Positions 2,777-13,662 of a stretch of 29,130 nt of DNA are shown one piece after another. The notes below the pieces were generated by a model. The model searched no databases. It saw only the letters and a list, made by a program, of their open reading frames with translations, and was not told the DNA's origin. The translations under genes were made by a program, and so were the position numbers. The number at the start of each line of letters is the position of its first letter. The stretch's first letter is position 1. This DNA is from a virus: positions 1 to 29,130 of the IMG/VR virus record IMGVR_UViG_3300027985_000820; one strand, written 5' to 3'.

Positions 2777-3151
2777 ATGAGTTCAGAAGAGCAGCTGACG
2801 CTGATACTGGAGACCATTTCCGCAGCGAAGGCCGAGGGACGTGACCTCACCATTGCACAGGCGCAGCGCTGGCTGCACAGAAAGTACATCCAGAACCAGA
2901 TCTACAACAAATACGGCGCCAGTATTCAGGGCTTTCTCGTGATAGCAGGTTTTACGGTGGGCGAGGAGGATGGGCGTCTGGTGCATGACCAACGCTTCTA
3001 CAATATCTTCAGCCGGTACCTAAACAGCGAGAACTACCTGAGCGGTGCGGATGGCGTCAAGCTTCGTGACGCCATGGACCGGCTGGGCATCGACTACCTC
3101 AACTCTCCCACTTTCCCGCTGGAGCCGATCGAAGAAAAAAAGGCGGTGTGA
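2777..3151 (+). CDS. unknown protein preceding the transposase
   Basis: A 124-residue protein with a clear TAAGGAG ribosome site 7 bases before ATG 2777. The sequence is mainly helical: a helix with QAQRWLHRKYIQNQIY followed by YGASIQGFLVIAGFTVG, with charged ends. There is no signal peptide. It ends one base before the transposase start codon, so the two are translationally linked. In Mu the gene before A is the small repressor Ner, but this protein is longer and has no obvious Ner-like HTH, so I leave the function open. It could be a DNA-binding or transposition accessory protein. Confidence 0.75.
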   Translation: MSSEEQLTLILETISAAKAEGRDLTIAQAQRWLHRKYIQNQIYNKYGASIQGFLVIAGFTVGEEDGRLVHDQRFYNIFSRYLNSENYLSGADGVKLRDAMDRLGIDYLNSPTFPLEPIEEKKAV

Positions 3152-3152
3152 T

Positions 3153-5288
3153 GTGGAGTATTTTATTGATACAAGGGTGGCTTCTATCATCTATGGAGTT
3201 GGAGAGCGTGCATTACGAGCAGCTGTGGAACGCGGCAGCGATGCCTACCGCCACACATACATAGAAGCAAAAGGACGTGGTGGGAAAAAGCTCCTCATCG
3301 GCGTCACCAAAACACAACTCGAAAAAGCAGACCTTGACCCTGAAGCACTGATCTGGAACGATGTACTGGAGCCAACAACGTTTGAGATGTTTAAAAGCAC
3401 TCTCATTTCAGATGAAAAAAAAGAAAACATAGCGCCTGACATGCGCGACTTCCTCAACGCCAGCGAAACACAGCAGCGCCAGACACTGCTAAAGCTGAAC
3501 GTCATAGAAGGCTATGCACACCGCAAAGGCTCTACTTCCGAGTATATTGCCTCGCTCGGCTCAAAATTTGACGAGCTTGGCATTACCGAAGGGAAGCTGT
3601 TTCGGTGGCTGAAGAGCTACGCCGATGCGAAGGAGTCTGGCATCAGCCCATTGGTGGCGCTTCTTGACAAGCGTGGTGCAGAACGCGGGGCGACGAAACT
3701 CAGCGCGGAGCAAAAAGAGATGGCAGTGCGGCTGCTATGCCGACGCGACAACCCGCTGCGGGTGAGTGCTATATACCGCAATATGAAACACCGCTTCGGT
3801 ACCGCCATGCCAAGCTACGCGGTGCTCAACAACTTCCTCAAGCGTTGGAAGCGCGAGAACGCGAGCCTATACGAGTTTGCACAGAACGCCGACAAGTGGA
3901 AAAACAGCCGCCTGAGCGCACAGGGAAGCCTGAGCGAAAAGGCGCTCTACCCCAATCACTACTGGGAGCTCGACTCCACACCTGCAGACATCATCACCGG
4001 AGACGGCAAGCGTTACACCATCCTCGGTGCCATCGACGTATTCAGCCGCCGCCGCGTCTTCTGGGTGGACGAGCGCTCGAGCAGCTTCTCCATTGCAAGG
4101 CTGCTGCGCCGCGCCATCATGAAGCTGGGCATTCCCGAGCATGTTGTCATCGACAACGGGAAGGATTACCAGAGTAACCACTTCGAGAGCATCTGCTACA
4201 ACCTCGGCATCGACATGGTGACCGTACCGCCGTTTTCCGGTGACATGAAGCCGCACATCGAGCGGGTGTTTAGGAGCCTATCGAGCCAGCTTTTCGAAGA
4301 GATGGAGGGCTACATCGGCCACAGCGTCGCCGAGCGCAGCGCCATCGAGTCGCGCCGTGGGTTTGCCCATAAGATCGAGAGTCAGGAGAAGTGGTACAAG
4401 AAGGCGAGAGAGGCCAAGAAGGGTGCTTTTGTCGACGGCTTCAAGATCAAGGAGGGGAACCTCGGGCTGGAGCTGAAGATGGCGGTAGAGGCCGACGAGC
4501 TGATGCGGTGGATCGACGGGTGGACGGATATGGTTGAGCGCGAAAAGCATTCATCGCTTCCGGGCACACCACTGCAGCAGTGGCAGAAGCAGGTCGTCCC
4601 CGTCAAGGCGGTACCGGACGAACGGATGCTTGACATTCTGTTTGGCGAGAGCTTCACACGGAAGGTCGGCAAAAAGGGAATTTCGCTTCACGGAGCACTC
4701 TACCAGCATGTGCAGTTGGCCTACCATGTGGGCGAGGATGTACGGGTGATGTCGGTGGACGAGATGGGGCATGTGTATGTCTACACGATGAACCTTGAAC
4801 CGATCTGCATCGCGGAAGACTACGACTTCATCGGCCAGAGCCGTGAAAAGCTCGCGGAAGCCAAGCGCATCAGCCACCGTATCGCCAGAGAGCATGCCAG
4901 AATGCTCGAAGCGTGGGAGCGCGTCAGCAGGGAGATCGACCCGAGCATCAAAGACCGCATCGTCGCCTCCATGGCGGAACGCGGCGTGGAGATGCCGATG
5001 TCAACTCCTGCGGTGACCAAGCCTACAGAGGTGATCCTCAATATTATGGAGGCGTCCAAGACCTTTGCGGCGCAGGATGCAGAAGCCGCGGCAGATTCGA
5101 ACATCACTGACATGCAGGGAGAGAAGCTGCTGCCCTCAGGAAGGCCGCCGTTTCGTCAGGTGTACGACCGTTTCATGTGGGATCTTGAACATGACATGGT
5201 TGATGACAGTACCAAAGAACTCAAAATTGGCAGAGAGGAGATCTGGAATGCCGCAGAAAGAGAGTATGAACGAAAGAAGGCTGGATAG
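3153..5288 (+). CDS. Mu-type DDE transposase A
   Basis: Catalyses strand cleavage and transfer of the phage ends, both for integration and for replicative transposition. With the GTG start at 3153 the protein is 711 residues (Mu A is 663). The N-terminus (VEYFIDTRVASIIYGVGERALRAAVERG) looks like the Mu DNA-binding domain, and HTH-like regions follow. The rve/RNase H core has D274 in WELDSTPADI, D334 in VIDNGKDY and E370 in KPHIERVFR. The D-E gap is 35 residues, shorter than Mu's and like the retroviral arrangement. A mu-C beta-barrel type region follows at about residues 460-560, then a charged C-terminus that in Mu contacts MuB and ClpX. GTG is chosen because the longer upstream frame overlaps the previous gene and lacks homology-like character. 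Confidence 0.93.
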   Translation: MEYFIDTRVASIIYGVGERALRAAVERGSDAYRHTYIEAKGRGGKKLLIGVTKTQLEKADLDPEALIWNDVLEPTTFEMFKSTLISDEKKENIAPDMRDFLNASETQQRQTLLKLNVIEGYAHRKGSTSEYIASLGSKFDELGITEGKLFRWLKSYADAKESGISPLVALLDKRGAERGATKLSAEQKEMAVRLLCRRDNPLRVSAIYRNMKHRFGTAMPSYAVLNNFLKRWKRENASLYEFAQNADKWKNSRLSAQGSLSEKALYPNHYWELDSTPADIITGDGKRYTILGAIDVFSRRRVFWVDERSSSFSIARLLRRAIMKLGIPEHVVIDNGKDYQSNHFESICYNLGIDMVTVPPFSGDMKPHIERVFRSLSSQLFEEMEGYIGHSVAERSAIESRRGFAHKIESQEKWYKKAREAKKGAFVDGFKIKEGNLGLELKMAVEADELMRWIDGWTDMVEREKHSSLPGTPLQQWQKQVVPVKAVPDERMLDILFGESFTRKVGKKGISLHGALYQHVQLAYHVGEDVRVMSVDEMGHVYVYTMNLEPICIAEDYDFIGQSREKLAEAKRISHRIAREHARMLEAWERVSREIDPSIKDRIVASMAERGVEMPMSTPAVTKPTEVILNIMEASKTFAAQDAEAAADSNITDMQGEKLLPSGRPPFRQVYDRFMWDLEHDMVDDSTKELKIGREEIWNAAEREYERKKAG

Positions 5289-5308
5289 TCGGGCGTTTTG
5301 GCGCCCGA
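5289..5308 (+). promoter_or_regulatory. hairpin directly after the transposase stop
   Basis: TCGGGCG (5289-5295) and CGCCCGA (5302-5308) form a perfect 7-bp GC-rich stem with a TTTTGG loop, starting on the base after the stop codon. There is no U-tract, so it is not a standard terminator. It may protect the upstream message end or set the ratio of transposase to MuB. Confidence 0.5.
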
Positions 5309-5364
5309 TGATCGAGTCTTTTGCCAGAAAGACCGAACTATTTCAAATCCTACAAGGAGCAGTC

Positions 5365-6072
5365 ATGCGTGAAGAATTTGTTCAAACGCAGAATTATATC
5401 AAACTTGTCGAAGCTTTTTCAAATCTTGATGAGCTTCCTGTCAGCGCACCCCGCATCGGGCTTGGGTACGGCAACTTCGGGCTGGGTAAAACGTTTGCCC
5501 TAGAGCGTATTGCGCTCAAGGAGAACGCCATTTTGTTTCGGGCGTCCGAGACATGGACGAAAAGCTCGCTGCTTTCAAAGCTGTGCGGGGAGCTGGGTCT
5601 GGATACCAAGGGACATAGCCCTCAGCTCTACGAGCGGGTTCTGGAGTCGTTTCTGGTCAACCCCAGAACGCTCATCATCGACGAGGTAGACGCCCTGACG
5701 CGCGGCGACAAGGTCACGGTTCTGGAGATGCTGCGCGGGCTGCATGATGAGTCGAGCATTGTGCTCTTTCTCGTTGGTATGGAGCAGGCTGACGCCAAGC
5801 TCAAGCGCCACCGTCACTTCTACAGCCGCATCGTCGAGTTTGTGAAGTTCGAGGGGATCGGACCCGCAGACATCGAAAAATTCTGCACATTGTGCGACGT
5901 CGCTATTGAGCCTGACCTCATAGGCTTTTTTGCAAAACGCTACCCAAACCTGCGCCAGATCAAAGTCATTCTGTTGCGTCTGGAGAATTTCTGCAAAATC
6001 AACGGCATCAAAAGCGTTGATCTCAAAACATTCAAAGCATCGGGGGTAGAGCATGGGGTCGACAAAGCCTAA
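5365..6072 (+). CDS. MuB-type AAA+ target-capture ATPase
   Basis: An ATP-dependent DNA-binding partner of the transposase that selects target DNA and stimulates strand transfer. The start at 5365 has AAGGAG six bases upstream and gives 235 residues. Walker A is GNFGLGKT (36-43) and Walker B is TLIIDEVD (102-109). A sensor-type segment VLFLVGMEQAD and a C-terminal helical lid follow (YPNLRQIKVILLRLENF). Mu B is 312 residues with an extra N-terminal HTH, which is absent with this start. An in-frame extension overlapping the transposase end exists but has no better ribosome site. The 3' end overlaps the next gene by 20 bases. Confidence 0.88.
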   Translation: MREEFVQTQNYIKLVEAFSNLDELPVSAPRIGLGYGNFGLGKTFALERIALKENAILFRASETWTKSSLLSKLCGELGLDTKGHSPQLYERVLESFLVNPRTLIIDEVDALTRGDKVTVLEMLRGLHDESSIVLFLVGMEQADAKLKRHRHFYSRIVEFVKFEGIGPADIEKFCTLCDVAIEPDLIGFFAKRYPNLRQIKVILLRLENFCKINGIKSVDLKTFKASGVEHGVDKA

Positions 6073-7930: not shown

Positions 7931-7981
7931 GGCTGCTTGATGGAGCGCTACAAGTCGCCCAATTCAAAACAAGGACAAAGC

Positions 7982-8656
7982 ATGCCAAAGAAAGATGAAC
8001 GCGGGTTCTGGCAAAGCAAGGACGGTGACTTCCGTCACCCGGATATGGTTCCGATGGACAAGCAGCTCGAAGACCAGACGGTAGAAAAGCTGGTTGCCAA
8101 AGCAAAAGAGGTGCAGCAGCTACTGATCGAATTCAAGAGTACTGCCTATGAGGAGTGCTTCACATTCATCGAGCTGCTGCGTGACAAGTACGGCATGGAT
8201 CGCATGGAGAGTTCTCGCATGGGAAGCGTCACACTACGAACATACAATGGCTCTGCAGAGGTACAGATACAGGTCGCGAAGCTGATCAGCTTCGACCAGA
8301 AGCTCTCTCTGGCAAAAGAGAAAGCAGATGAGTATCTGATAGAGAAGACGGAGCATGCCGACCCTGAGATTCGGACGCTGATCACCAAGGCTTTCGAAGT
8401 CAAGAACGGGCGCATCGATGTCAAGAAGATCCTCGCGCTGAAGTCGTACGGCATCAAGCATCCAAAGTGGCTGCAGGCCATGGAGCTGATCGACGATGCA
8501 ACGGAGATCGCAGGCACTAAGAGCTACATCCGGTTCCGTGAGCGTGAAGGCGGGGCTATCGACGGTCAGATGATCAACATCGCTCTTGATCTTGCTGCAC
8601 TCCCGGTGCATGAAACGAAACGTGATGAGGATGATGACGATGACGATGTCGCGTGA
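7982..8656 (+). CDS. DUF3164 family phage protein
   Basis: A 224-residue protein resembling the DUF3164 family found next to transposition genes in many Mu-like phages. It has the typical start with an FW.. and ..MVP..K motif, a long helical centre (VEKLVAKAKEVQQLLIEFKS), the YGMDRMESSRMGSVTLRTYNG beta segment, and KLISFDQKLSLAKEKADEYL. The molecular role of the family is unknown. The start at 7982 is preferred for its AAGGA site; ATG 7940 is in frame but lacks one. The end is a run of aspartates that overlaps the next gene by 17 bases. Confidence 0.8.
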   Translation: MPKKDERGFWQSKDGDFRHPDMVPMDKQLEDQTVEKLVAKAKEVQQLLIEFKSTAYEECFTFIELLRDKYGMDRMESSRMGSVTLRTYNGSAEVQIQVAKLISFDQKLSLAKEKADEYLIEKTEHADPEIRTLITKAFEVKNGRIDVKKILALKSYGIKHPKWLQAMELIDDATEIAGTKSYIRFREREGGAIDGQMINIALDLAALPVHETKRDEDDDDDDVA

Positions 8657-9128
8657 ATATAGCAGCGCGGAAGCATCTGAAATCATCAGAGTTGGAGAGG
8701 ATGAGCTACTGGTGTTGCGCAAAAAAGTAGGTATCGACATGGTAGGAAAGATGACGGAATCCAATATTTCTGCCATCAAAAGCTACAGACGTAATGTGCA
8801 GGGTGTTCCAGATCTACGCCCGGAAGAATATCGGGTATGTGATACATGCATGGAAGAGAAACCGATGATTAACTTTCCAACTCGCGGACGTGGACACTCT
8901 AAAACATGCATGGCATGCCAAACTCAAGAGGAGGATAGCAGTGAACAACAGACGGAGACACCGCAGATTAAGAAAGATGAAGCGCCGATAAGCAAGCAGC
9001 GCGCAAAGGAACTCGTGAAAGAAGCCTATGACCTTGGATTCCGACATGGTGAACAGCTTGGAATAGAGCGAGGGCGTGTTGTGAATGACAGCGTCGGAAT
9101 GCTTGAGCTGCTTGGTGATGTGTCATGA
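8640..9128 (+). CDS. zinc-ribbon protein
   Basis: A 162-residue protein. Several ATGs lie in a row; 8640 is chosen because GAGG ends nine bases upstream, with 8646 as alternative. After an N-terminal helical region comes a CxxC...CxxC knuckle: CDTCMEEK and KTCMAC at about residues 67-93, separated by 19 residues. A charged linker and a helical C-terminus (QRAKELVKEAYDLGFRHGEQ) follow. Such ribbons bind one zinc and usually DNA, RNA or protein. Early phage location suggests a regulator or nucleic-acid accessory. It overlaps the HD gene by ATGA. Confidence 0.65.
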   Translation: MTMSREYSSAEASEIIRVGEDELLVLRKKVGIDMVGKMTESNISAIKSYRRNVQGVPDLRPEEYRVCDTCMEEKPMINFPTRGRGHSKTCMACQTQEEDSSEQQTETPQIKKDEAPISKQRAKELVKEAYDLGFRHGEQLGIERGRVVNDSVGMLELLGDVS

Positions 9129-9694
9129 ATACTGCTAACTTCATAGTCCTTTCATCAGGCGCACGCTTCTACTTCCATGATATGGCCGCCAATGACATCC
9201 ACATTGAAGATATTGCAACGGCACTCTCGAACATCTGCCGCTTTGGAGGACATTGCGGCAAGTTCTACAGCGTCGCGCAGCACTCCGTGATGGTGTCTCA
9301 CCTTGTGCCTGAAGAACATGCACTGGCTGCATTGCTGCATGATGCCACGGAAGCCTATGTCGGCGACATGGTTCGACCATTGAAGCGGCAGATATCTCAC
9401 TACCGGGAGATAGAGCAGATCGTATCACGCCTGATCGAACTGGAGTTTGGTATAGACCTGCATCACCCGGAGATCAAGAATGCAGACAACCGGGCACTTT
9501 ACGCGGAGGCCATGCACTTTTTTGGAAGTGTTGAGGATTGGAAACTTGATGGGTACGAATGTTTATATCATATTGATCCATTTTCACCAGACGAGGCAAG
9601 GGAGTTGTTTATGGGACGATTTCTTGAGCTGATTCCAAGCAAACCATCACCGATGTTCGATCACTACATAAAGCGCTTCACCAAGCTGACTTAA
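9125..9694 (+). CDS. HD-domain phosphohydrolase (YfbR/DatZ-like)
   Basis: A 189-residue metal-dependent hydrolase of the HD superfamily. Motifs are IEDIATALS, GGHCGKFYSVAQHSV (H43 and H53), LLHDATEAY (H72, D73, E76) and a final aspartate in NADNR (D121). The same architecture occurs in 5'-deoxynucleotidases of the YfbR group and in DatZ, the phage dATP triphosphohydrolase used by phages with 2-aminoadenine DNA. So it most likely dephosphorylates deoxynucleotides and shapes the pool during replication. No PurZ-like gene is in the window, so a modified-base role is not supported here. It ends the operon, with a GC hairpin just downstream. Confidence 0.8.
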   Translation: MNTANFIVLSSGARFYFHDMAANDIHIEDIATALSNICRFGGHCGKFYSVAQHSVMVSHLVPEEHALAALLHDATEAYVGDMVRPLKRQISHYREIEQIVSRLIELEFGIDLHHPEIKNADNRALYAEAMHFFGSVEDWKLDGYECLYHIDPFSPDEARELFMGRFLELIPSKPSPMFDHYIKRFTKLT

Positions 9695-9769: not shown

Positions 9770-10117
9770 ATGGCTGGAATACGTGAAGAGATAGAAGAGA
9801 TTGTCGCACATCTGAATGATGTGGTAAAGACCAACTACCGTGCCGGATCAAAAAAGACGCAAAGGCTCATTTTGGTACATCTTGGGAAAGGCTTCACCGT
9901 AGATGATTTCAAAATGGTTCATCTCATAAAGGCTGCTGACTGGATGGGGACAGACTTCGCAAAGTACCTGCGCCCGGAGACGCTCTACGGCAGCAAATTC
10001 GAGAGCTACCTAAACCAGCCCATGAGCGACGCGCAGAAGCTCAAAATGATCATGCAGGCCACCGGTAAGAGCGCCACAGAGGTGCGTGACATGATGATGA
10101 ACGGTGACAGACCATGA
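9770..10117 (+). CDS. stand-alone Phg_2220_C-type replication domain
   Basis: A 115-residue protein with an AAGGAAAGG site before ATG 9770. Residues 9-83 closely follow the pattern of the conserved phage replication C-terminal domain (Phg_2220_C): helix EEIVAHLNDVV, GSKKTQRLILVHLGKGFTVD, WMGTDFAKYLRPETLYG, KFESYLNQ. In the known family this domain sits at the C-terminus of replisome-organiser or DnaD-like initiators. Here it is a free-standing protein. It starts a unit of three genes with the RepA-like helicase and so probably acts in loading or recruiting the replication machinery. It overlaps the next gene by ATGA. Confidence 0.8.
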   Translation: MAGIREEIEEIVAHLNDVVKTNYRAGSKKTQRLILVHLGKGFTVDDFKMVHLIKAADWMGTDFAKYLRPETLYGSKFESYLNQPMSDAQKLKMIMQATGKSATEVRDMMMNGDRP

Positions 10118-10674
10118 AGGCGCATTTGCGTGATAGCATCGTCCGCTCTCTTGGCATAGAAGGCGATCTGTTCGCTCTTCCAATGATCGAATCGATCATC
10201 AATGAGATTCCAGAAGATCAGTATCAGGTATTTTTTGATGCGCTCCATGGTGACGAGCATAAGTTCCTACGCGGACTCGACCGGGTGCAAAAGGTGGCGA
10301 AGATCTTTAAGGAGAACCGCAATGCGGCACTGCTCGGCGGAACCTACTCGAAAGCCAAAGAGATAGCAGACAGATTCTATGCCATACGCCGCGCCGTCTC
10401 CGAGTACGCAGAGCGAAATATCAAAGAGGGCAGCCAGAAAGATTTCTTCAACCGTGTGAAGTATAAAGAGATCACGATCCACGGAGAGCCTCTTACCAAG
10501 CAGGAGCTTTACGTCCTGGACAAACTCGGCGGCGGCGCATGGCTCTATGGGCTGATCTTCGAGGCGAACTCCGGCGTGGTGGTAGAGCGGATCGACCAGA
10601 TCATCCGTGACGCCATACTGGAGAAGCAGCAGAAGCAGCTTGGGAAGAACGAAATGAAAAGGATTGGTGTATGA
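10114..10674 (+). CDS. unknown protein of the replication block
   Basis: A 186-residue mostly helical, charged protein, in ATGA overlap with the Phg_2220_C gene. Sections such as HKFLRGLDRVQKVAKIFKEN and AKEIADRFYAIRRAVSEYAE suggest long helices, followed by a part with YKEITIHGEPLTKQELYVLD and GGGAWLYG. No known motif is recognised. Position between a replication-domain protein and a helicase suggests a partner such as a loader or primase-like accessory, by context only. Confidence 0.7.
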   Translation: MKAHLRDSIVRSLGIEGDLFALPMIESIINEIPEDQYQVFFDALHGDEHKFLRGLDRVQKVAKIFKENRNAALLGGTYSKAKEIADRFYAIRRAVSEYAERNIKEGSQKDFFNRVKYKEITIHGEPLTKQELYVLDKLGGGAWLYGLIFEANSGVVVERIDQIIRDAILEKQQKQLGKNEMKRIGV

Positions 10675-10678
10675 CTTT

Positions 10679-10723
10679 GCAACACTCATGCAACACTGAA
10701 AGCCCTGTTTTACTGAGTGTTGC
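10679..10723. repeat. GAGTGTTG repeats ahead of the RepA-like gene
   Basis: GCAACACTC (10679-10687) and GCAACACTG (10690-10698) are direct repeats with an 11-bp period. An inverted copy, GAGTGTTGC, lies at 10715-10723, making a perfect 9-bp inverted repeat with the first. The cluster occupies the whole gap before the helicase gene and could be its operator or an origin-type site. Confidence 0.7.
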
Positions 10724-10749
10724 AGTGATATCAGTTTTGGAGGTGTATT

Positions 10750-11664
10750 GTGTTTGATTTTCTACAGGAAGAGTGGTTGCTCACCGAAGAGAAGCTTCAC
10801 AGCAAAACAGAGTACTACATTGAGAACTTCATTCCCAAAGAAGGGATTACGATGTGGTACGCAAAATCAGGAGAGGGAAAAACATGGTTTTCCCTTGCTG
10901 TAGCCAAGTATATTCTTGACAATCATTCTGATGTGCGTGTGCTGATCTACATGGATTTTGACAACCCCCGTGCAACACTGTCTGATCGGAATGTTGAGCT
11001 GCTAATTTCAAATTATCATAACTTCAAGTTTCTTCATCGGTCAACTATCTCTATCAGCCCTTCAGAGTTGCTTGTCAACATTGGAAAGGGTGCATTCGGA
11101 GAGAATTATAAAGACTGTATTTTTATGATAGATGCCGCCCGTGACGTTGCCGAGGGAGACATGTATAACGATACGAAAGTACGGGCAATGATGGATGTAT
11201 GCAAAAATATACGGGAAGCCAGAGGCACGATCATATTCAACCACCATGCAACAAAGAACGGAAAGCAGATTGATGGCTCCGGAGAGTTTGCTAAAAGTTT
11301 GGATGTACTATACAGACTGGGGCAGCACTCGAAAACAGAAGGCATGATTCATTTGAACCTCGATGCTGAAAAAGAGCGCCTCCCTGTACTCGATCAAACT
11401 TTTACGGTAGACACAAAAACACTATGCCTGAGACCTATGGACGACAGAGTGGCGCGGATTGACGGTGATGATAAGGCATTCATTGACCAGGTAAAAGATG
11501 TCCTGTCAAAAACAAAAGACGGCATGGGGCAGAGCGAACTCCTTGCCAAGATGGGGCTTGAAAAAAGTGATAGACCTGCAAGAGCAAGACTGGAAGCCTT
11601 CACGGGCACATTCTGGAACGTGGCACAGGGTGCACGCAATTCAAAAGTCTATACATTGGTATAG
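10750..11664 (+). CDS. RepA-like hexameric helicase ATPase (AAA_25/RecA fold)
   Basis: A 304-residue protein; GTG start at 10750 with GGAGG seven bases upstream. Walker A is AKSGEGKT (38-45, first glycine replaced by alanine). An IYMDFDNP segment is near 67-73, Walker B is CIFMIDAA (123-130), and IIFNHHATKN (161-170) matches the sensor strand of the RepA/DnaB-like RecA-fold helicases. The last 60 residues look like a winged helix (GMGQSELLAKMGLEKSDRPA). Plasmid and satellite RepA proteins of this type unwind DNA as hexamers at an origin. Mu itself relies on host helicase, so this gene is unusual here. GAGTGTTG repeats lie on both sides. Confidence 0.82.
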   Translation: MFDFLQEEWLLTEEKLHSKTEYYIENFIPKEGITMWYAKSGEGKTWFSLAVAKYILDNHSDVRVLIYMDFDNPRATLSDRNVELLISNYHNFKFLHRSTISISPSELLVNIGKGAFGENYKDCIFMIDAARDVAEGDMYNDTKVRAMMDVCKNIREARGTIIFNHHATKNGKQIDGSGEFAKSLDVLYRLGQHSKTEGMIHLNLDAEKERLPVLDQTFTVDTKTLCLRPMDDRVARIDGDDKAFIDQVKDVLSKTKDGMGQSELLAKMGLEKSDRPARARLEAFTGTFWNVAQGARNSKVYTLV

Positions 11665-12235: not shown

Positions 12236-12388
12236 AGCAGCACTAAAAAGTACAACACCTGCTACTCTTACAACTGCCCCTATAAATAGGGGCCAAACTG
12301 TTGTAAAACTGTTTCAATTCTCTATATATCTTCAAAGCATACCTAACAATCATACAACCATCGACATATCACGAACAGGAGGAAAATA
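12236..12388. other. intergenic region with CCCCTA hairpin
   Basis: There is no gene in these 153 bases. A perfect hairpin CCCCTA-TAAA-TAGGGG is at 12277-12292, with no U-tract on either side. The following TGTTGTAAAACTG (12299-12311) matches the sequence beside the left-end repeats (259-270), and CAACACC (12254-12260) is a weak copy of the GAGTGTTG motif. It probably serves as a control region for the next gene set. Confidence 0.5.
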
Positions 12389-12687: not shown

Positions 12688-12977
12688 TGCAAGGGACGTC
12701 ATATCTTGAATATTTTGCCGAGATTGGCGTACATGTAGAGAAAAGTAAAACAATGCAGTTTACATGTACGGTATGTGGTTCTACGCATCAAAACACTGAT
12801 GTGTATAGTTTTACACTTTTTAAGCACCGCTCTGTGGATTATGTTGAGTATCTTAGCAACAGTAAGATTCAAAAGGAAATGGATAATTACAAAAAATCTC
12901 TTGGTATTCGGCTCTTTTATTATTGGGATAGCCTTTGCGAACGTTGCGTTCATGCGAATGTCAGGGGCGCATTATGA
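12687..12977 (+). CDS. small zinc-finger-like protein
   Basis: A 96-residue protein, AAGGAG before ATG 12687. It contains two CxxC pairs, FTCTVCGS (about residues 26-31) and LCERCVHAN (near 86-90). They are placed to bind one zinc across a helical middle (YVEYLSNSKIQKEMDNYKKS). It looks like a single-zinc adaptor or regulator. It overlaps gemA by ATGA. Confidence 0.65.
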   Translation: MQGTSYLEYFAEIGVHVEKSKTMQFTCTVCGSTHQNTDVYSFTLFKHRSVDYVEYLSNSKIQKEMDNYKKSLGIRLFYYWDSLCERCVHANVRGAL

Positions 12978-13393
12978 ACCGCACCCAGTATCGCGTCATG
13001 CTGATCAAGCAGATTCATGTTTCACACCGCTACCGCGACTATTTCATCTACCAGCGTGAAGAGTACGAAGAGCTTCTACATGAGCATTTCGGTGTCACCA
13101 GCTCGAAACATCTGAATATTGACCAGCTCGTCATGCTATGCGACTGGATGAACTTCCGCATTGATATTCTCCCCGTTCAGAAAAAGAAAGCTGATCTCGT
13201 AACACCGGCGCAGCTCACCACTATACGCGGCATGTGGAGCCAGTATGCCAAAGACACCAGCGACGAAGCACTGCTGAAGTTCGTGAAAAAGATCATCGGA
13301 GAGCAGTACTTACACATCAAAAGCCTGAAGCTCGAAGAGGCACAGAAAATCATACCGGTGCTGGACAAGATGCAGCATGCAAAGGGGCGGTGA
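12974..13393 (+). CDS. GemA family regulator (DUF1018, Mu gp16-like)
   Basis: A 139-residue protein of the GemA/DUF1018 family. The first half matches the family start (YRVMLIKQIHVSHRYRDYFI, then REEYEELLHEHFGVTSSKHL). The second half has TPAQLTTIRGMWSQYAKD and EEAQKIIPVLDKMQ. In Mu, GemA changes host gene expression, reportedly through DNA supercoiling. In Mu-like phages it regularly precedes mor, as here. ATG 12974 overlaps the previous stop by ATGA and the gene ends in TGATG with mor. Confidence 0.85.
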   Translation: MNRTQYRVMLIKQIHVSHRYRDYFIYQREEYEELLHEHFGVTSSKHLNIDQLVMLCDWMNFRIDILPVQKKKADLVTPAQLTTIRGMWSQYAKDTSDEALLKFVKKIIGEQYLHIKSLKLEEAQKIIPVLDKMQHAKGR

Positions 13394-13662
13394 TGGATGA
13401 AAATGAAAAGATAACAAGCTTCGATATGTTCGAGCAGTTCTATGAGGACTGCCGTGATCTTCCCATCGAAGAGGTAGTCAAAAAATACAGCTCATGGAGC
13501 GTTTACGTGCCGTCATACAAAGGCACCTACCGAAATGAGAAAATACTCAGTGACTATGCAGATGGCATGAGCATACCAGATATTGCAAGGAAGTATGAAC
13601 TCTCGCCAAAGCAGATATATGAAATCACGTATGATATGCGTAACCCGACACTAGACATTTGA
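13393..13662 (+). CDS. Mor/C family late transcription activator
   Basis: An 89-residue protein of the Mor family (Mu Mor is 129), here shorter at the N-terminus. The dimer region includes DLPIEEVVKKYSSWSVYVPS with the conserved W..Y.P strand. The HTH is at residues 56-80 (ADGMSIPDIARKYELSPKQI). Mor-type activators bind as dimers upstream of promoters lacking a good -35 and recruit RNA polymerase. The likely targets are the divergent head and tail promoters at 22822-22914, which have -10 elements but no -35. Only one Mor/C-type gene is seen, so it probably does the work of both Mu activators. Confidence 0.87.
   Translation: MDENEKITSFDMFEQFYEDCRDLPIEEVVKKYSSWSVYVPSYKGTYRNEKILSDYADGMSIPDIARKYELSPKQIYEITYDMRNPTLDI

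Follow-up and report, generated by a model that had tools for sequence, protein, structure and literature searches.

What would a transposing phage do with replication genes of its own? The question is raised by virus record IMGVR_UViG_3300027985_000820, a sequence of 29,130 bases that was analysed in full and is called the window below. An earlier note had singled out three adjoining genes in the early region of a Mu-like phage, and had proposed that they serve either an extra, origin-based mode of replication or a phage-specific step of replisome assembly after strand transfer. The trio is indeed present in such a region; its three reading frames are all open, and genes for MuA, MuB and Mu-type head proteins were found in the same window. 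The genes, with protein lengths in amino acids (aa), are:

9770-10117, + strand: stand-alone Phg_2220_C domain protein, 115 aa (PF09524, phrog_428)
10114-10674, + strand: MID, an unnamed protein of 186 aa and candidate partner or loader, whose chromosomal relatives overlap a DnaD-like gene
10750-11664, + strand: RecA-fold AAA_25 ATPase, 304 aa, GTG start, a candidate DnaB/RepA-type ring helicase (AAA_25, phrog_6357)

Phage Mu is not known to code for a replicative helicase or loader, and DnaT takes part in its host replication route. According to PMC3334882, the Mu transpososome is removed by ClpX together with host factors, PriA then binds to the fork, and DnaB is delivered to it from DnaB-DnaC. 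The window phage would share with Mu both MuA/MuB transposition and post-strand-transfer forks in need of a helicase, and differs in that it encodes a RecA/DnaB-type ATPase together with two replication-type partners.

We favour, with moderate confidence, the explanation that the block is a module with which the phage itself assembles replisomes at the forks left by MuA strand transfer, with the Phg_2220_C protein and MID as the loading pair and the ATPase as the ring helicase. MuA and MuB would replicate the phage by strand transfer, leaving forks at the phage ends, where the Phg_2220_C protein and MID, acting as a pair that needs no particular origin, would load a ring helicase. This helicase would be the ATPase itself, of the RepA/DnaB kind, or else the ATPase would work with host DnaB, and the module would stand in for the host restart route used by Mu; helicase activity, loading and action at strand-transfer forks are what we infer. 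Of the two proposals, that of replisome assembly after strand transfer is supported, because the ATPase travels with MuA, its named families are mostly helicase or primase-helicase families, and the relatives of MID pair with DnaD-like proteins.

The lone Phg_2220_C domain and a second complete trio

That the domain normally found at the end of an initiator forms a gene of its own was borne out. The 115-aa protein covers the whole PF09524 profile (1-73/73; E=3.5e-21, 75.5 bits against a cut-off of 27), and its match to phrog_428 (E=5.6e-27, profile positions 232-321 of 455) is confined to the C-terminal domain of initiators, the N-terminal DNA-binding part being absent. Since the list of open reading frames (ORFs) begins each frame at the first start codon after a stop, no initiator N-terminus lies in frame. 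With the DNA-binding part missing, the lone domain suits a fork rather than an origin. A parallel only is offered by Staphylococcus aureus DnaD, for which PMC4909229 reports that the C-terminal region is needed for binding single-stranded DNA and PriA. Phage initiators and replisome organizers (phrog_428, phrog_1163) have the complete Phg_2220_C domain in common with the window protein, whereas in them it ends a longer protein. Examples are L069 (273 aa) and L070 (242 aa), initiator-type proteins from other prophages in genomes that also bear the MID pair described below; there (L069/L090 and L070/L089) the full-length initiator is followed directly by a partner of about 200 aa, of MID's size (DUF6475 and phrog_18959, respectively). 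In the 397 Campylobacterota genomes searched, PF09524 was matched above cut-off only twice, by full-length initiators elsewhere.

A scan with a MID alignment identified L091, a Mu-like phage contig that carries all three genes in the same order, with identities to the window of 73% (Phg_2220_C), 61% (MID) and 55% (ATPase). Its Phg_2220_C protein is also stand-alone and likewise lacks the N-terminal part. The contig ends about 2 kb before the trio, so that MuA would lie off the contig on that side; the contig was read up to its far 7.7 kb. Between the two phages the proportion of synonymous differences (pS) in the trio was 0.71-0.82, near saturation, and that of nonsynonymous differences (pN) 0.17-0.30; the DUF3164 and GemA-like genes gave a similar picture. 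The earlier note had asked for the trio in other phages and had allowed for decayed cargo. The full trio was found only in the window and L091, and, because it is complete in the latter at 55-73% identity with a signature of purifying selection, comparison of the sequences indicates a maintained block and not decayed cargo.

The ATPase and its tie to MuA

The third protein had been called a RepA-like RecA-fold helicase. The fold stands: the window ATPase matches AAA_25 (E=3.9e-10) and phrog_6357, a family of unknown function (E=1.1e-68), and its AlphaFold2 model (predicted local distance difference test score, pLDDT, 88.8) has a RecA fold over residues 2-234, with a C-terminal part that, by the secondary structure of the model, reads as winged helix-like. 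The likeness to RepA holds at superfamily level only. In a profile search of the PDB, whose top three rows were RecA fusion chains with scores summed from repeated weak domains (6-7 bits each), RadA was matched at E=0.0024, the RSF1010 RepA helicase (1g8y) at 0.0066 and a UvsX at 0.01. RepA was absent among the best 50 structure matches listed, which were filled by RecA, KaiC and RAD51 types, an absence that excludes nothing, and NCBIfam gave only weak matches (FlaH, RadB, ArlH, IstB and KaiC types). RepA is, like the window protein, a single-domain RecA-type ATPase of about 280-300 aa, and D-(S/T)-LR-F and HHxxK stretches of the two align by profile, at the E-value of only 0.0066 just given; the window ATPase differs in its extra winged-helix-like C-terminus and its place in a MuA phage where no iteron array was found.

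Across 23 divergent ATPases, residues K44, D69, D71, N72, R80, D128, R155, H166, K169, D185 and R210 are invariant. In the alignment and the model K44, D128 and R210 fit a RecA fold with Walker A, Walker B and a trans-acting arginine, and R210, judged by its position in the protein, would be the arginine finger. Among the named PHROG families matched by these 23 proteins are phrog_239 (primase/helicase; 19 proteins), phrog_6012 (DNA helicase; 12) and phrog_243 (DnaB-like; 9). That the protein is a RecA-type, DNA-acting ATPase, probably ring-forming, is well supported; a replicative helicase is the best reading, and RadA/Sak4-type roles may also apply. The ATPase thus did not turn out to belong to a non-replicative family, as the earlier note had considered, and it is not firmly placed in a replicative one either.

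When the window ATPase served alone as the query of pattern scans, neither viral contigs nor genome contigs yielded a relative; alignments were needed. Using tblastn, the protein was recovered from Campylobacter phage CAM-P21 and a Helicobacter prophage (35-36% identity), annotated as 'hypothetical protein'. An alignment scan of viral contigs gave 22 ATPase loci, to which a scan for MuA added four more; MuA is present in 17 of the 22, and in the other five the sequence starts at MuB or beyond it, or near the ATPase. GTDB genomes yielded 21 loci in Campylobacterota and Gammaproteobacteria (genera include Aliarcobacter, Sulfurospirillum, Sulfuricurvum, Campylobacter, Helicobacter, Alteromonas, Vibrio, Thiomicrorhabdus and Bowmanella), 17 of them with MuA; the remaining four are either short contigs or loci whose ATPase lies close to the end of a contig. 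The ATPase is not found in the Mu-like phages HS6, MuM16-1, RS1 and phiRTG5, nor in most Helicobacter prophages examined.

In 386 Campylobacterota genomes the ATPase profile was matched at E 1e-3 in 128 and MuA at 1e-20 in 77. Of the 26 ATPase places that score above 200 bits, here called strong, 20 have MuA within 7 kb, compared with 1 of 40 weaker relatives (about 125-183 bits; still weaker ones were excluded); the MuA side of this count consisted of 70 rows, one of them entered twice, and the MuA rows omitted lie on contigs without these ATPase places. The MuA search scored at most two candidates per genome, and may therefore have missed MuA in G295, which has two scored candidates and two strong ATPase places with no MuA nearby. 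Three further strong places are on MuA-less contigs of genomes with MuA elsewhere (G376 twice, G096), and the sixth, L092 (G220:C7:631000-650000), is in a Mu-like prophage that has retained its head genes, a Gam-like gene and the ATPase but shows neither a full MuA nor a MuB. These counts define a Mu-phage clade of the ATPase inside a wider family. Three of the weaker relatives were examined: a phage-type integrase is close to both L094 and L095, L094 additionally has a sub-cut-off DnaG-type zinc ribbon in its neighbourhood, and L093 lies beside a small helix-turn-helix (HTH) protein.

Several further features were seen in these phages. Shortly upstream of the ATPase, L028:10614-10856 and L092:7188-7436 encode a stand-alone protein of 80-83 aa that resembles a piece of the C-terminal part of MuA (phrog_310 E=2.1e-4; MuA profile 2.4e-6). 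Mu-like prophages of Alteromonas and Paraglaciecola have an additional, shorter ATPase-like ORF a little beyond the first (L045:11223-11924, E=1e-41; L060:11527-12243, E=3e-38). DciA-like genes occur in Mu-like phages of Helicobacter, Campylobacter and Sulfurospirillum (L003:4973-5455, L022:8315-8770, L026:5399-5881, L027/L044, L032, L033, L035-L038, L052 and L056). Only that of L037 exceeds the PF05258 cut-off (E=5.8e-6) and that of L003 is weak (E=0.063); other members scanned had no Pfam DciA match, and the rest were identified by a profile built here. L032, L033 and L035-L038 show the DciA-like gene and no ATPase, and the other such loci have both.

In the titles and abstract openings listed, which cover few subscription papers, no phage-coded helicase was found described for Mu-like phages; the word 'helicase' occurs 0 times in the available part of PMC8705779, and the scope also took in the available parts of PMC4004267, PMC11318856, PMC7924643 and PMC8093625. 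For the Campylobacter phage DA10, the available part of PMC7291426 reports an AAA ATPase with a suggested role in replication and sets the phage apart from Mu-like phages.

MID and its chromosomal relatives

The start of MID overlaps the stop of the Phg_2220_C gene by 4 bases. The description of its product as an unfamiliar helical protein holds insofar as no Pfam or PHROG family was matched up to E=0.1, with no AAA+ match, and as the AlphaFold2 model is mostly helical; the model itself is weak (pLDDT 63), and no Foldseek match below E=0.98 was obtained. As a single query MID found no relative in phages, viral contigs or five genomes, and five weak matches, one in a broken frame, in the 397 Campylobacterota genomes. 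An alignment of MID with the other four revealed relatives in 10 of these genomes, including Sulfuricurvum PD_MW2 (G002).

In all 10 chromosomal loci the MID-like gene overlaps the start of a gene for a protein of 292-300 aa. Three of these neighbours were scanned; they gave HTH_36 or Phage_rep_O matches below cut-off, and matched DnaD-like helicase loader, replisome organizer and O-like PHROG families at 1e-7 to 7e-4, with phrog_2514 (DnaD-like helicase loader) at 1e-7 to 3e-7. This constant overlap groups MID, on sequence grounds, with proteins that probably accompany DnaD-type initiators, as MID lies beside Phg_2220_C in the window and L091. The pair of a MID-like and a DnaD/replisome-organizer-like gene was seen in Sulfuricurvum-type genomes at L064, L065, L066, L068, L087 and L088. 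Two larger regions, L087 and L088, look chromosomal; transporter- and cytochrome-like genes lie around the pair, by eye, and one of the regions is on a 2.57-Mb contig.

Identity of MID with known partners was not supported. DciA gave no Pfam match and an hhalign probability of 0.4% to a phage DciA-like protein, and the probabilities were 1.3% for the DUF6475-type partner of L069 and 2.5% for the phrog_18959-type partner of L070, with control comparisons at 0.2% and 0.3%. A one-pair BLASTP match of MID to the DciA-like protein of L003 (E=0.001) was not borne out by hhalign.

We also compared the distribution of the chromosomal pair with that of DciA. The Pfam model gave 3 matches in 23 genomes, 2 of them over cut-off, was too insensitive here and was replaced by an alignment of host and phage DciA-like proteins, run on 8 genomes. 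It matched 4 of 4 genomes without the MID pair and 0 of 4 with it, in a test that is partly circular, as G003 and G264 themselves supplied query rows and another row, L026, closely resembles a prophage copy in G001; counting independent matches only (G084 and a second place in G001), the figures are 2 of 2 against 0 of 4. This is a hint that the MID and DnaD-like pair may exclude DciA. According to PMC5109545, phage dnaC/dnaI genes have become domesticated on no fewer than seven occasions, with dciA giving way to them, and by analogy the chromosomal MID pair may be a similar domestication of phage genes, with other proteins. Like DciA and the domesticated DnaC/DnaI loaders, MID is a small protein that would serve helicase loading, and its chromosomal relatives would be a possible case of a phage-type gene replacing chromosomal DciA; unlike them, MID shows no detectable likeness to DciA and lacks an AAA+ match, and its chromosomal relatives pair with a DnaD-like protein.

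Phage setting, gap repeats and competing explanations

The presence of MuA, MuB, Portal_Mu, MuF and Mu I protein confirms, at the level of sequence, a Mu-like transposing phage. On the early side the order is S24 repressor, MuA, MuB, DUF3164, GemA-like and weak Mor-like genes and then the head genes (portal, MuF, I protein and gp36), which lie on the opposite strand. The nearest relatives of its MuA (55-60% identity) include Sulfurospirillum and Sulfuricurvum loci (L044, L057), so a Campylobacterota host is likely. The other features of the window are:

3045-5288, + strand: MuA-type transposase (rve, Mu-transpos_C; phrog_310 E=7e-74)
5065-6072, + strand: MuB-type ATPase (AAA_22, TniB; phrog_296 E=1.1e-35); its true start is probably further down, because the ORF overlaps MuA
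7937-8656, + strand: DUF3164 protein, an early-region marker (PF11363 E=5.8e-59)
9125-9694, + strand: HD-type dNMP phosphatase, upstream of the trio (phrog_318 E=1.9e-63)
10675-10749, no strand: gap holding RCAACAC/GTGTTGY repeats, both direct and inverted, arranged much as in the corresponding gap of L091
11665-11734, no strand: gap after the ATPase with the same motif, from a repeat scan
12935-13393, + strand: GemA-like protein (its own profile matches an L003 protein that matches PF06252 GemA)
13234-13662, + strand: weak Mor-like regulator (PF08765 E=3.5e-4, under cut-off)

The gap element consists of RCAACAC repeats, an inner GCCCTA/TAGGGC-like dyad in several copies, and inverted GTGTTGY. 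In L091 the elements beside the ATPase lie at 2820-2912 and 3825-3925. The sequence GAGTGTTG occurs 6 times in the window, where shuffles average 0.97 and 0 of 100 reach 6, and five of its six copies are in the two gaps beside the ATPase. For RCAACAC/GTGTTGY, 6 of 15 matches fall in the 8.6% of the window that is non-coding (P about 0.001, with our own gene list and a motif chosen after it had been seen); one copy lies in 12236-12388, and more copies of the element were seen near the left end of the window (about 244-260). Five gap stretches folded as RNA gave z from -0.1 to -5.3. The repeats could be operators, terminators or replication sites, and they do not look like one origin, because they are spread over several gaps.

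These repeats bear on the first of three competing explanations, namely that the block is a plasmid-style replicon whose initiator sites are the gap repeats and which might operate, for instance, immediately after infection or during a phage-plasmid stage. In many cases Phg_2220_C belongs to a protein annotated as a replication initiator, the repeats flank the ATPase in both phages, and two of the three wider ATPase relatives examined lie near an integrase. We nevertheless consider this origin-based mode unlikely. It is weakened because Phg_2220_C has no DNA-binding part in either phage and because no compact iteron array was found in the block, where the only tandem repeat detected, 9 bases in two copies, lies within MID; at the other phage loci looked at, moreover, the ATPase goes with MuA and not with Phg_2220_C. 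The RCAACAC dyads beside the ATPase leave it in place as the less likely of the two original proposals. A take-over of host helicase loading, by which the block would inhibit or redirect host replication instead of building forks, appears very unlikely to us: the genes do lie in the early region, and PMC4887207 reports a phage protein binding to the host loader DnaI, but an inhibitor would not need the catalytic residues that are kept in all 23 ATPases, and MID has no detected similarity to the DUF6475-type partner mentioned above.

A rather unlikely prospect, though one with more in its favour, is that the loading pair serves host DnaB and the ATPase does other work at the fork, such as branch migration, annealing or repair, in the manner of RadA, UvsX or Sak4. 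In structure comparison the ATPase model matches RadA helicase (Z 18.1) and RecA (18.0) best, with G40P (17.1) and DnaB (16.9) close; KaiC heads the Foldseek list, Sak4 families match 4 of the 23 ATPases, as do UvsX families, and one of the island relatives, L093, scores above the AAA_24 cut-off. Against this, matches to helicase and primase-helicase families are more numerous and stronger, the Pfam match of the window protein is AAA_25 and not AAA_24, and L095, another island relative, scores above the cut-off for DnaB_C (34.3 bits, cut-off 27).

Several observations also weigh against the replisome-assembly module that we favour. By structure, helicases could not be told apart from RecA, RAD51 and KaiC types, the largest PHROG matches of the 23 ATPases are to families of unknown function, and the island relative L093 exceeds the cut-off (32.4 against 27 bits) of AAA_24, which we take to be the Pfam family of Sak4. 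The other ATPase phage loci examined in viral contigs and GTDB have neither Phg_2220_C nor MID, and no relative of either was found in the loci L002-L029. The ATPase follows MuA poorly: over 17 loci in each comparison, gene distances correlate at r=0.93 for MuA and MuB and 0.86 for MuA and the GemA-like gene, compared with a Mantel r of 0.27 for MuA and the ATPase, and, L091 aside, every member of the 23-row alignment shares 30-38% identity with the window ATPase, even where MuA identity is 58-61%, a pattern that fits an ATPase that is exchanged between phages or fast changing. On the side of the loading pair, similarity between MID and its chromosomal relatives is low (19-24% identity; E 2e-7 to 3e-4, in one genome), homology between Phg_2220_C and the C-terminus of the chromosomal DnaD-like protein was undetected (hhalign probability 2%), and two of the four positives in the DciA comparison came from the query alignment itself, a third partly so.

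A wider version of the replisome-assembly module is put forward as tentative and rather doubtful. A lineage of Mu-like phages may have left the host restart primosome and acquired its own ring helicase and a swappable loader slot, filled by Phg_2220_C and MID here and by DciA-like proteins in phages of Helicobacter, Campylobacter and Sulfurospirillum, and the pair of MID and a DnaD-like protein may have become fixed on Sulfuricurvum-type chromosomes, replacing DciA as helicase loader.

The hand-over from strand-transfer product to replisome has been worked out for Mu in Escherichia coli, where host proteins carry it out. With phages that supply a ring ATPase and loader-type proteins themselves, this hand-over could be rebuilt from phage parts. 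If the chromosomal relatives of MID do replace DciA, they would add one more loader type to DciA and DnaC/DnaI, and would connect phage and host helicase loading at one more point.

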